64,000 bases of DNA from Sphingomonas bacterium (GTDB lineage Bacteria; Pseudomonadota; Alphaproteobacteria; Sphingomonadales; Sphingomonadaceae): assembly GCF_028293085.1 (NCBI RefSeq), contig NZ_JAQGLC010000186.1, positions 1-64,000 on the forward strand, read 5' to 3'. Under the pieces are notes generated by a model. That model did no database searches. It was not told the origin of the DNA and saw nothing but the letters and a program-made list of their open reading frames with translations. Shown here in pieces: positions 54,431 to 63,845 of this stretch. The position numbers and the translations under genes were made by a program. Each line of letters opens with the position of its first letter. Position 1 is the stretch's first letter.

Positions 54431-55975
54431 TCAGGCCAGCGGCACCGAAAAACGGAAATGCGCGCCACCGCTCCCGCTTTCCTCCAGCCAGATCGCGCCG
54501 TCATGCGCGTCGATGATGGTCCGGCAGATCGACAGGCCGATCCCCATGCCGTCCGGCTTGGTCGAATCGGCCCATTCGAACAGTGAGCCGGCGATGTCGG
54601 GCGCGACGCCCGCCCCGTTATCCCGGACCGAGACGATCGCCCGATCCTCCTTCACGAGGGTCGAGATCGTGACGCGGCCATCGCCCCGGCCGGCCGCCGC
54701 CTCGCAGCCATTGCGTATCAGGTTCATGATCACCTGCTGGATCTGGATGCGATCGGCATCGATCATCGTGCTGTCGCGGCTCAGGTCCGCGATCAATACG
54801 CGCTCGCACGCGCCGACGCGCATCAGCGCCACCGTTTCGCGCACGGCGTCCCTGAGGTCGAACAGCTCGCGGGCAGGCTTTGCCCGTTTCGTCATGTCCT
54901 TCAGCCGGCGGATGATCTCGCATGCCCGCCTGGCGCTGTCGCTGACGTCGCTCAGAATCCCCGCGACCGGCTCGGTGCCGGCGCCATCGGCCTCGATCAG
55001 ATGGCGGCCGACCGCCACATGGTTGGAGATCGCGGTCAGCGGCTGGGTCAGCTCGTGCGCCAGGGTCGCGGCCATCGTGCCCATCGCACTCACCCGGGCG
55101 AGGTGGATCACCTCGGCCTGCAGCGTCCGCACCTGGTCGGCCGCCTGTTTCTGCGCGGATACGTCATGCCCCTCGCAGAAGATTCCGGTTATCACGCCGT
55201 CCGGGGCCCGGATCGCCTGATAGATGAAGTCGATGAAGCGCAGCTCCCCGTCCTGGCCGGTCTCGCGTTGCAGCTCGACCGGGACGCACTCGCCGGTGAA
55301 AGGCTGTCCCGACCGATAGACCCTGTCGAGCACAGCGATGAAGCCTTGCGCCACCAGTTCGGGCATCGCCTCGGCGACGGACTCGCCCAGGATGCCGCGA
55401 TTGCCGACCAGTTGCTGATACGCATCATTGGCGAAACTGAAGCGATGCTCCGGGCCCTCCGTCGTCGCGATGAAATCGGGCGTATGCTGATAGAGCGCGT
55501 GCAGCGCATCCCGCTCCCGGCGGACTCGCTCGATATGACCGCTGAGGTCGACGAACGACGCGCAGTGCTGGACGATTTTTCCCTGCCGGTCCCGGACCGG
55601 GTTGATCCGGACGGCGACCAGGAAGGGCCGCCCGTCGCGACGCCGGCACTCGACCTCGATCGTCTCGGTCGCTTCCTCCTCGAACTGCGCCTCGATCCGC
55701 GCGAGCGCGTCGGGATCGGCGACCCGCGCCATCAGGAAGCCGAACGACTGCCCGACCACCTCGTCCTGCGCGAAGCCGGTCAGTGCCAGAAAGCTGTCAT
55801 TGGCGAAGATGATCGGGTTGCCCGGCTCGGTCGCGTTGGTGAAGGTCATCGCCATCCGCGTCATCTCGGCGGCCACGACGAAGGGCCCCAGCGCGCGTCG
55901 GAACCTGTCGACTTCCCGCTCCGCGCGTTCCTGTCCGGCGTCGTCATGCAGACTGGAACGCTTTGACTCGATCAT
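54431..55975 (-). CDS. PAS-domain sensor histidine kinase
   Basis: Two PAS-like regions (PIIFANDSFLALTGFAQDEVVGQ); MGTMAATLAHELTQPLTAISNHVAVGRHLIE; GMGIGLSICRTIIDAHDGAIW. Confidence 0.93.
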   Translation of the reverse strand: MIESKRSSLHDDAGQERAEREVDRFRRALGPFVVAAEMTRMAMTFTNATEPGNPIIFANDSFLALTGFAQDEVVGQSFGFLMARVADPDALARIEAQFEEEATETIEVECRRRDGRPFLVAVRINPVRDRQGKIVQHCASFVDLSGHIERVRRERDALHALYQHTPDFIATTEGPEHRFSFANDAYQQLVGNRGILGESVAEAMPELVAQGFIAVLDRVYRSGQPFTGECVPVELQRETGQDGELRFIDFIYQAIRAPDGVITGIFCEGHDVSAQKQAADQVRTLQAEVIHLARVSAMGTMAATLAHELTQPLTAISNHVAVGRHLIEADGAGTEPVAGILSDVSDSARRACEIIRRLKDMTKRAKPARELFDLRDAVRETVALMRVGACERVLIADLSRDSTMIDADRIQIQQVIMNLIRNGCEAAAGRGDGRVTISTLVKEDRAIVSVRDNGAGVAPDIAGSLFEWADSTKPDGMGIGLSICRTIIDAHDGAIWLEESGSGGAHFRFSVPLA

Positions 55976-57603: not shown

Positions 57604-58201
57604 AGTTGAGTCCAATATGCCGAAGGCGGTCCATTACGGCCCGCTGATTCAATCCCCGCCCACCCCGGCATAGCATGCCTCTCCGGTGTCCCATGCCGGA
57701 TGAATCGGGGGTGCCGAGCCATGACAGCAGAGAAACCGGAGCCTCAAACAGGCGGGAGAAGAGCGCCAGTCGCGGCGATCGATTCTCGAAAATGCGCAAG
57801 AACATATCAAATGGCGCGCCGGCATGATTTCGCCGGTCCGTTCTTCGCTCGCCGCGCATCCGGCCGGCGAATAGCCAGGCGCCCGCAAAAGCTGGAAGTA
57901 ACCCGACAAAAATTCCGGGTCGACGTGGCCTGGCAAAAATCCGTCATTACTGTCGGGTTTCCCACCCCTTCCAACACCATTACTTGGCGCCCGCCAGAGC
58001 GCTCCCGCACCCCGAATCCAGGAGATACAACCGAACCCGAAACCAATCCCGCCCGGGCAAAACCGCTTTCCCCAAATAATCGCGGCACTTACCGGAACTG
58101 TCACCATTTTCGCTGCAATTTCAGTCGATTGACGGCGATTCACTGGCCGTGGAATAGCACCTCATCCGCAGCATTCACCTGCCCACGGAGAGGGAAACAT
58201 C

Positions 58202-60292
58202 ATGCATCTCACCCATGAAAGCGGCGCCTTGTCGGCCCGCGCCAGCAGCTTCGTCGAAACCGATATCCGCACCGTGCGCTGGATCGCGCAGGCGGCGATC
58301 AACGTCGAGCTGTTCACCATCCCGCTCTACATGACCACGCTCTATTCGATCGAGGGCTTCCACCCGATCACCGGCAAGAACAATGATTTCTACAAGGGCC
58401 GCCAATGGCCCGGCGCCAAGGCCAGCGCCTTTCCGGATGTGGATCCGTCGCAGCCGGGCTGGGGCAACAAGCGCGCCTTCAACATCATCTTCTCGGTCTT
58501 CATCCAGGAGATGCTGCATCTCCAGATGGCCGCCAATATCGCCACCGCGATCGGCTGCACCCCCAGCTTCACCGATACCGCGCTGCAGAACCCGGACAAT
58601 GGCTGGACCTGCTACGGCCCGACGCTCACCACCATCCCCGACATCGTCGATCTGCGCGACACCTCGACCTATACCGATGTGAAGGTCAATGTCGGCCCGC
58701 TCGACGAGGATATTATCCAGCTCTTCCTCGCGATCGAGCAGCCGCAGGACGATGCCGAGCGCGACATCGTGCGCAACAAGGAGAAATATTTCCCCAAGGT
58801 CCCGTTCGACGGCGGCAATCCCGATTACGATCCCGCCACCGCGGGCATCATGTTCGGCTCGATCGGCTATATGTACCAATGCTACCGCGATTATCTGCAG
58901 ATCCGCTATGACGACGGCACGTGCCTGTGGGATCATGTCTTCGATCAGAACGGGCAGCAGAATGATCTGTTCAACAGCTTCAGCTTCCCCGGCCATCCGA
59001 TGCGCGAATATATGGGCGTCGAGACGACCGTCGCGCTGACCGACAAGCATATCGCTTTCAAGCAGGCGCTCAACATGATGAACGCCATCACCGATCAGGG
59101 CGAGGGCGCGACGCTCAAGGCCCGCCTCAAGCTCGCCAACGAGGCCGGGCTGCTTCAGGCGGTCGAGGTCCGCTATCGCTCCGACAAGGACGCGCTCGAA
59201 TCGGATTATCCGAGCTATTCGGATACCGGCGCGCAGGTCCCCTCGGGCGATGCCGCCGCACGCTACGACAATGACGGCGAGGACCATTTCGAGCGCTTCA
59301 AGGAAGTGCGCCAGCTGATGGTCGATGGCGGCATCGTCACCTGGGACAAAGCGGGCAAGGCCGGCAACTGGACCGCGGCCGATCTCACCACGGCGGCCTA
59401 TGATCCGAACGACAACCCATACGGCCTGCCCACGCCCGACCAGATCGCGACCGCGCTCAACAATCTCTATGCCGAGCCGGTCCGCGCGCAGAGCCACACT
59501 ACCCTGAGCCAGGCCGTGGTCGGCTCGATCAAGGGCGTGACGACGGTGCTCGACCAGTACTGGAACCCGGGCAGCAGCGCGGTGTCCTTCCCGTTCCCGT
59601 CCATGTCGGGCTCGGGCGACCGCATGGCGACGGCCTGGGCGGCGATGGCGATGACGCCGGATCTCAGCCAGGGGCTCCCCGCGCCCAACACGCACATCGT
59701 CAACCACACCTGCCAGGGGCTGGATCTCTATGCGGAGGGCGGCCCGGGCACCAACAGCTGCGCGCTGACCACGGTCTACCACACCTGCCGCGGCTCGAAT
59801 CTGTGCAAGGGCATGGGCGGCTGCGGGTTCGTCCAGCCGAGCGGGGGCGGCGGCAATTGCAGCTCCAGCGTCCGCACCACGCCCGCCGAGCCGACCCCGG
59901 GCAAGCCCCAGGGCGGCGGCTGCTCCGCGGTCGGCGTGCGGGCCAAGGGCGGCCTGTGCGGCACCCCGACGCCCACGCCCGGCGGCACCACCTATACCGC
60001 GCCCAGCGACAATCGTTGCGGCGGTTTCGGCGGCTGCGCGGTGCCGATCTCGGCCTGCCAGATCTACCCGGTCAGCGGGACGATGGAGGTGCTGCAGCTC
60101 TCCGCCGCCCATGGCTGCGGCAAATATCCACCCACCCCGATCGATCCGCCGCTGCCGTTCAAGAAGGGCGACCGGGTCGAGGATATCGCCTTCCAGGCCT
60201 TCACCCAGGTCGCGAAGCATATCGGCATGAAGCCGCCCGCCACGCCGCCCCCGCCGAACGACATCCGCCTCGCCTTCCCGCCCTCGACCTGA
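58202..60292 (+). CDS. ferritin-like domain protein (VioB/iminophenyl-pyruvate dimer synthase-like) with Cys-rich C-terminal tail; candidate MNIO substrate
   Basis: [53 protein letters not shown]; tail with 12 Cys between codons 504 and 639 including CKGMGGC and CGGFGGC. Confidence 0.85.
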
Positions 60293-60299
60293 GGAACAT

Positions 60300-61187
60300 A
60301 TGAGCTACCGGTCCATCCCGTCCCCCATCCCCCCAAGGATCGGCCTCCCCGATCCGGGGGACGGGGTGGGCCTGCGCGAGGAACATTATCCGCATTTGAT
60401 GCGCACCCCGCCCGCCGCCTGGGGCGTGGACTGGTTCGAGGTCATTTCGGAAAATTACCTCGATAATGAGGGATATGGCATGCGCGTGCTCGAGCATGTC
60501 GCCGCGCACCGCCCGATCGTGATGCACGGCGTGTCGCTCTCGATCGGCAGCACGGCGCCACTCGACATGGGCTACCTGGCGAAGCTCAAGGCGCTCGCCG
60601 CGCGCGTCTCGCCTTTGTGGATCTCGGACCATCTCTGCTGGACCGGCATAGGCGGCCTCAACAGCCACGATCTCCTGCCCATGCCGCTCACCGAGGAAAG
60701 CCTCGCCCACACCGCGACCCGCGTCCGCGCGGTGCAGGATTATCTCGGCCGCCCGATCGTGCTGGAGAATCCCAGCACCTATCTCGCCTTCCAGTCGAGC
60801 CGCATGCCCGAATGGGAATTCATCGCCCGCCTCGCCGAGGACACGGGCTGCGGCCTGCTGCTCGACGTCAACAATGTCCATGTCAGCGCGGTGAACCAGG
60901 GTTTCGATCCGCTAGTCTATATCGACGCCATCCCCGCGAACCATGTCGTCCAGATCCACCTCGCCGGCCCGAGCGATCACGGCACGCACCTGATCGACAC
61001 GCATGATCATCCTGTCCCCGACGAAGTCTGGCCGCTCTACGCGCGGGCGTGGGAGCGTTGCGGCCCCGTCGCGACCCTGCTCGAATGGGACGCGAGCATC
61101 CCGCCCTTCGACGAATTGCTAGCCGAACTCGCCAAGGCGAAGACGGTGCGCGAGGCGCTGAACGCCGATGCGAAGGTCGCCGCCTGA
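60300..61187 (+). CDS. DUF692 family multinuclear non-heme iron oxidase (MNIO; MbnB/BufB-like)
   Basis: [94 protein letters not shown]. Confidence 0.95.
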
Positions 61188-62265: not shown

Positions 62266-62724
62266 ATGACACGCACGACCTATATCGTGGATGACGACGA
62301 CGGCGTCCGCAACGCCCTGCAGGGGCTGCTGGAGCTTCAGCCGGATCAGGACATTCGAAGCTTCGGCAGTGGCGAGTCTTTCCTTGCGGCGGCGGGCACG
62401 CTCGATCCCGGCGTGCTGCTGCTCGATCTCAACATGCCGGGCCTAGGTGGTCTCGACGTGATCGAGTTGCTTGAGGCATCGCATCCGCAGAAGTTCGCGG
62501 TGCTGATCCTGTCCGGCACGGCCTTTGCGTCGAGCGGCCTCGCCGCCAAGACGCGTGGCGTGTTCGCGTTCATCGACAAGCCTTGTGCGACCGATGCGCT
62601 ACTGGACGCTGTCGACGCGGCCTCCGCCACGCTGGTGCAAAAGGGCGCCGTCGCCACGAATGTCGAGGGGCAGAGACGGGCTCGGCGCATCCGAGTCGCC
62701 CGACGGCAATGCCTGGCCGCATGA
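62266..62724 (+). CDS. FixJ-type receiver-domain response regulator (no recognizable output domain)
   Basis: TYIVDDDDGVRNALQGLLELQ, GVLLLDLNMPGLGGLDVIELL, ILSGT, FIDKP. Confidence 0.92.
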   Translation: MTRTTYIVDDDDGVRNALQGLLELQPDQDIRSFGSGESFLAAAGTLDPGVLLLDLNMPGLGGLDVIELLEASHPQKFAVLILSGTAFASSGLAAKTRGVFAFIDKPCATDALLDAVDAASATLVQKGAVATNVEGQRRARRIRVARRQCLAA

Positions 62725-62762: not shown

Positions 62763-63845
62763 TCAGGCGTCCTTCGGTGCGGCGTCCGATCGTGCGAAGA
62801 AGATCGTGACGCGGACCCCCGCGCCCGGCGCGGATTCGACTGCGACCTGCGCCTTGGCGTTCTGCCGCAGCGACTGGACGATCAGCGCGCCGAGCTTGCC
62901 GGCTTTGGGCCAGGTAACGCCCTCCGCCAGCCCGATCCCGTCATCCGCGACGACGACGCGGCATCCCGTCTCGTCGACGATGCTGTGCAGGCTGATCGTC
63001 CCGCCGTCGCGCCCGGCAAAGGCATGCTTCAGCGCGTTGGTCAGCAGCTCGTTGACGACCAGCCCCGTCGGCATCGCGACATTGACCGAGACCGGCCAGG
63101 TATCGACCTGAAGATCGAGATGGATCCCCTCCACCGCATGCGCGCGCATTACGGACGACGCGATCTCGCTCAGATAGATGCCGAGATCGATGCTCTCGCT
63201 CACCCCCTCCTCGGAAAGCGACCGGTAGAGCAGCGCCAGCGCATCGATCCGCCCGGCCAGCCGATCGAAGCGCTTGCCCGTCGCATCGTCGGGGATATTG
63301 CGCGCCTCGAGCCGGATCAGCGCCGTGATCATCTGCAGGTTGTTCTTCACCCGGTGCTGCAATTCGCGCAGCAGCGTATCGCTGTCCGTCCGCCGCTCCC
63401 GGTCGATGCCGTCGCCCGGCGTGCGCTGCCCGGCCTCGGCAAGCGCGACCAGCCGGAACAGAGGCGTCCCGTCTTCGTCCTGGATGACGTTCGACCAGGC
63501 ATCGACGGTCATCTCCGTCGCATCATGCGCGATCGTGAAGCTGCCGATATATTCATCGCCGCCGGTCACCGCCTCGCTCAGCGCGCGGCCGTCGGCGGAG
63601 GTCGCGGTACCGGGCAGCGCATCCCAGCGCTTGCCCGCGATCGACGCCGACGGCTGGGCGGTCAGCCGTTCGAATTCGATGTTGGCGTAGGTGATGCACT
63701 CGCTCGGCTGCAGCTCGGCGACGGCGATCGCCACCGGTACATGGTCGAGGAACTGCTTGAACAGGTCGCTCTCCAGCGAGATCGCGAGATCGGGCGCGTC
63801 GAGAATCTGCCCGATCTGCCGGGAGTTCTCACTGTCCTCGCTCAT
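62763..63845 (-). CDS. PAS sensor histidine kinase of HWE/HisKA_2 type
   Basis: LLRELQHRVKNNLQMITALIRLEARN; VNELLTNALKHAFAGRDGGTISLH; VVVADDGIGLAEGV. Confidence 0.93.
   Translation of the reverse strand: MSEDSENSRQIGQILDAPDLAISLESDLFKQFLDHVPVAIAVAELQPSECITYANIEFERLTAQPSASIAGKRWDALPGTATSADGRALSEAVTGGDEYIGSFTIAHDATEMTVDAWSNVIQDEDGTPLFRLVALAEAGQRTPGDGIDRERRTDSDTLLRELQHRVKNNLQMITALIRLEARNIPDDATGKRFDRLAGRIDALALLYRSLSEEGVSESIDLGIYLSEIASSVMRAHAVEGIHLDLQVDTWPVSVNVAMPTGLVVNELLTNALKHAFAGRDGGTISLHSIVDETGCRVVVADDGIGLAEGVTWPKAGKLGALIVQSLRQNAKAQVAVESAPGAGVRVTIFFARSDAAPKDA

Follow-up and report, generated by a model that had tools for sequence, protein, structure and literature searches.

The window, the whole stretch of 64,000 nucleotides from a Sphingomonas bacterium that was analysed here, carries a gene for a ferritin-like protein with an internal Cys-rich module, followed by genes for an MNIO maturase and a DUF2063 partner (Table 1). 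We consider it fairly likely that this MNIO pair modifies the module, which resembles those of bufferins and captophorins, within a cytosolic ferritin-like protein, and that the module, once matured, binds a soft metal; the neighbouring enzyme would then probably reach beyond small peptides and remodel a large cell protein into a metal binder.

Table 1. Features of the ferritin-like/MNIO cassette in the window, and loci in which the module is a gene of its own
Feature	Position	Strand	Evidence
Possible -35 region, conserved CGATTGACG element, upstream of the ferritin-like gene	58126..58134	+	
Ferritin-like protein with internal Cys-rich module, 696 aa	58202..60292	+	
PF12902 ferritin-like domain, residues 30-305	58289..59116	+	Pfam E 6e-24
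Cys-rich module, conserved core (NHxCQG ... CAVPISA)	59702..60064	+	
BufA2-like motif CxGxNxCKGxxxC	59780..59824	+	hhalign vs BufA2 and NCBIfam listing
Second conserved Cys motif	60008..60055	+	Homologue alignment
Conserved C-terminal segment ending RLAFPPST	60158..60289	+	Kept as far as L032 and L044
MNIO (PF05114), BufB family maturase	60300..61187	+	PF05114 E 5.7e-106
DUF2063 protein, PME-type 1 partner, 260 aa	61187..61969	+	PF09836 E 6e-18
Split system: ferritin-like gene, Cys-rich gene, MNIO, DUF2063	L084 3375-6976; L085 4909-9113; L086 4772-8972		

The ferritin-like protein and its partner genes

The N-terminal domain passes the gathering score of PF12902 with 85.6 against 22.3 bits and has one sequence relative of solved structure, PDB 3hl1, and it has in common with PF12902 proteins the residues E/ExxH/E/E. 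These residues, E36, E103xxH106, E179 and E301, are invariant in 17 of 17 homologues, and from the ferritin-like fold E36, E103, H106, E179 and E301 are the putative metal ligands of a dinuclear site.

A preliminary description of this DNA had drawn attention to 12 Cys in residues 504-639 behind a Cys-poor N-terminal part, and inspection of the open reading frame bears this out, with Cys at 504, 520, 529, 535, 541, 553, 574, 586, 606, 612, 619 and 639 and only four within residues 1-503. The two CxGxGGC motifs it named, CKGMGGC (59804-59824) and CGGFGGC (60017-60037), are likewise in place, as are both forms of HTC(Q/R)G, namely HTCQG and HTCRG. The region had also been called a C-terminal tail, which does not hold; it is internal, being followed by a conserved stretch of some 55 residues (about 640-696, ending RLAFPPST). 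This stretch can still be made out in Pseudoalteromonas (L032) and in L044, which is more distant, and it may have a recognition or docking role. Modelling of the full-length protein with AlphaFold2 from 14 sequences gave a structure too poor for reading fold or disorder, with a mean pLDDT of 40.9 and values of 20-25 in the Cys region. An open frame of 681 aa also runs antisense to the ferritin-like gene on the minus strand (58175-60220), which is probably a GC-rich shadow frame and was treated as such and not as a gene.

The three genes are closely packed, with the ferritin-like stop codon at 60290-60292 and the MNIO start at 60300 leaving a short spacer, and the DUF2063 start overlapping the MNIO stop (TGATG). 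The MNIO exceeds the curated BufB cutoff (NF050167, 357.4 bits against 310) and aligns to 3bww and to TglH-type and MbnB structures, and the DUF2063 protein, at 260 aa, matches PME-type 1 partners in length (PMC12452194). The genome contains one MNIO gene and one DUF2063 gene, and no BufA2 or DUF2282 precursor was detected in it, at a completeness of about 90%. With a single MNIO and no detectable bufferin precursor, the adjacent ferritin-like/Cys protein is the natural substrate candidate; at about 90% completeness another precursor could be missing from the assembly, which counts against this explanation.

Conservation of the module and its association with MNIO

A genome scan found 14 homologous loci, mostly in Sphingomonas, and in all 14 the ferritin-Cys protein, the MNIO and the DUF2063 protein are encoded in the same order. 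The three-gene cassette is all that distant contexts have in common, with no other gene shared across distant loci. For Cys conservation L032 and L044 were added to the homologous loci, giving a set of 17 sequences in which Cys 504, 529, 535, 541, 606 and 612 are invariant, Cys 520 is kept in 16 and Cys 574 and 586 in 15; Cys 619 is poorly kept (3/17) and the number of Cys in the linker varies. Conservation is higher at Cys than at the residues around them (permutation p 0.007), and the Cys region has a dN/dS of 0.37 against L012 and 0.18 against L002, by which measure it is under purifying selection. A check proposed earlier, whether the Cys motifs are conserved among homologues retaining the MNIO neighbour, came out positive, with the six Cys present in 17/17 and MNIO and DUF2063 genes adjoining in 14 loci. 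In one homologue (L003, 6001-8301) the tail is enlarged with several CGTPTPS-type repeats, giving 19 Cys in the C-terminal part.

The association can also be approached from the ferritin-like family itself. PF12902 proteins were sampled by this domain alone, ignoring the module, and their neighbourhoods were then read; four fragmentary hits were omitted, and the window protein is one of the six carriers of the module. The module, whether fused or adjacent, is accompanied by MNIO and DUF2063 genes in 6/6 cases, whereas none of the 13 sampled proteins that lack it has an MNIO within the few flanking kilobases (Fisher p 3.7e-5, uncorrected for phylogeny). One PF12902 fragment, L087 (G488 C55 11958-12278), has an in-frame TAG and no MNIO nearby and is possibly a decayed gene.

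The module is not always part of the ferritin-like protein. In three Sphingomonadaceae genomes (L084-L086) it forms a distinct gene of about 230 aa between the ferritin-like and MNIO genes, an arrangement to be expected if the MNIO acts on the Cys region. This gene has its own start in all three, preceded in L085 and L086 by a clear ribosome-binding site, so that stop readthrough or frameshifting was ruled out as an account of the split reading frames. The separate proteins end GNMTACGSSGxSGAGGC and show no visible signal peptide, and L042 has a counterpart of them that is fused to the ferritin-like domain. No more relatives of the module were found among viral contigs and plasmids, apart from Pseudoalteromonas, and the separate-module alignment, searched class-wide without a positive control, gave no matches in 385 genomes, which fits a rare system.

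Relation to known systems and proposed function

When the window tail was compared with NCBIfam, BufA2 (NF050166) was the sole family listed at E<10, at 7.9 bits against a cutoff of 60; this is well short and counts against the proposed modification. BufA2 does match the separate protein of L085 at E 0.0076 and the best member of the module alignment at E 1.7e-4. In single pairwise profile comparisons the window modules match BufA2 at E 1.1e-4 (hhalign), the separate-gene clade matches BufA2 at E 1.5e-7 and the same clade matches the window modules at E 4e-11, with CxGxNxCKGxxxC the core common to module and BufA2. When columns were shuffled with gap columns moved too, 3/200 shuffles reached or exceeded the real module-BufA2 score; these three are taken as gap artefacts because shuffling of occupied columns only gave 0/300. 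By these profile comparisons the Cys module is homologous to the BufA2 core. The window protein is nonetheless not a BufA2 member, because it misses the curated cutoff and lacks a signal peptide; no Sec signal peptide is visible by hydropathy and inspection, which again counts against the preferred explanation.

Several known systems are comparable in part. BufA2 bufferins with BufB/BufC (NF050166, NF050167) share the BufB-family MNIO, the DUF2063 partner and CxGxNxCKGxxxC, but they are small Sec-exported peptides, whereas here the motif lies inside a protein of about 700 aa in which no signal peptide is visible or, in the split form, inside a signal-less protein of about 230 aa. Captophorins (fontiphorin, oxazolin/HvfA) have an MNIO with a PME-type 1 partner and a Cys-rich substrate in common with the window system, but the window module lacks EGKCG repeats and is fused to a ferritin-like domain. 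Adjamnio-I proteins (Antoine 2025), of 122-293 aa with 8-21 Cys and adjoining an MNIO, resemble, compared by description only, the separate module of L084-L086, although they are reported with PME-type 2 partners whereas the partner is DUF2063 (type 1) next to L085 and in those fused systems that were tested. TIGR04222 proteins, which occur mostly in Actinomycetota, are also large and MNIO-linked and contain low-complexity sequence rich in Cys, but they are membrane proteins and have different partners.

A search of one library of papers found none joining MNIO/DUF692 with the PF12902 ferritin-like family. In that library 'DUF692' and 'ferritin' occur together in a single paper, a Caulobacter copper transcriptome. 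Ferritin is absent from the main text of the MNIO landscape paper (PMC12452194), in which it is already suggested that MNIOs may modify proteins, and which reports PME-type 1 partners with exported, signal-peptide substrates, a link to which the ferritin-like/MNIO system would be an exception.

Conservation, co-occurrence with MNIO and the BufA2-like motif all support the suggestion, made earlier from sequence, that the Cys region is a candidate MNIO target. In the mechanism we propose, the three genes would form a self-contained cassette, in which a cytosolic PF12902 protein bears the bufferin/captophorin-like Cys module and the DUF2063 partner would guide the adjacent BufB-type MNIO to it. 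Cys in two conserved motifs, CxGxNxCKGxGGC and NxCxGxGGCA, would be oxidised by the MNIO. To judge from BufA and FonA, in which Cys are converted to thiooxazoles that bind Cu (PMC12452194, PMC12668002), the most likely products are 5-thiooxazoles, and the mature module would bind a soft metal, most likely copper, beside the putative dinuclear ferritin-like site. In this scheme the chemistry of modification and the metal are inferred, as are the physiological role, the cytosolic location and what the ferritin-like site does. Its boldest form, in which thiooxazoles are placed on a folded cytosolic protein of about 75 kDa to give a metalloprotein that combines a putative diiron-type site with a copper site built after translation, is a more tentative proposal that we hold just short of evenly balanced; if true, it would break the reported link of PME-type 1 partners to Sec-exported peptides.

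It would seem unlikely, although it deserves some weight, that the ferritin-like domain is instead a co-processing enzyme or scaffold that matures, loads or holds the module, which would be the payload, with fusion merely tethering the two. The separate adjoining genes of L084-L086 and the invariant putative metal ligands are in keeping with such a role, but other MNIO-DUF2063 systems function without a ferritin-like protein, and fusion would keep the enzyme attached to every product. Less probable again is an unmodified module, metallothionein-like or disulfide-bonded, with the MNIO substrate elsewhere in the genome; Cys- and Gly-rich regions are generally able to bind metals unmodified and the genome is incomplete, but the strict co-occurrence of the module with MNIO and DUF2063, its BufA2-like motif and the failure to detect a bufferin precursor in the same genome all speak against it. 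We give slightly less credit still to an MNIO that modifies the protein differently, through oxazolone/thioamide chemistry or at a residue other than Cys, or does so for a different metal or stress, since whilst several reactions are known in the MNIO superfamily (PMC12452194), and the module has no FonA EGKCG repeat and keeps the CKG context only in part, the MNIO is of BufB type by curated cutoff and few positions of the module are as well conserved as its Cys.

If modification of the ferritin-like protein by its MNIO is correct, MNIO chemistry would reach an intracellular protein as well as secreted peptides, and two metal-handling modules would be joined in one chain. Testable soluble protein substrates of MNIOs are few, and the window system offers clear motif targets, together with relatives in nature that encode the substrate module separately.

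Upstream element and flanking genes

In an upstream alignment of 15 loci (the window and L002-L015) the CGATTGACG element is largely kept, L010 being the main exception, and it is accompanied by an AT-rich box; together they look like a common promoter of the ferritin-like gene. Finally, sensor-kinase-like and response-regulator-like open reading frames flank the cassette at some distance (54431-55975, 62763-63845 (-); 62266-62724 (+)).
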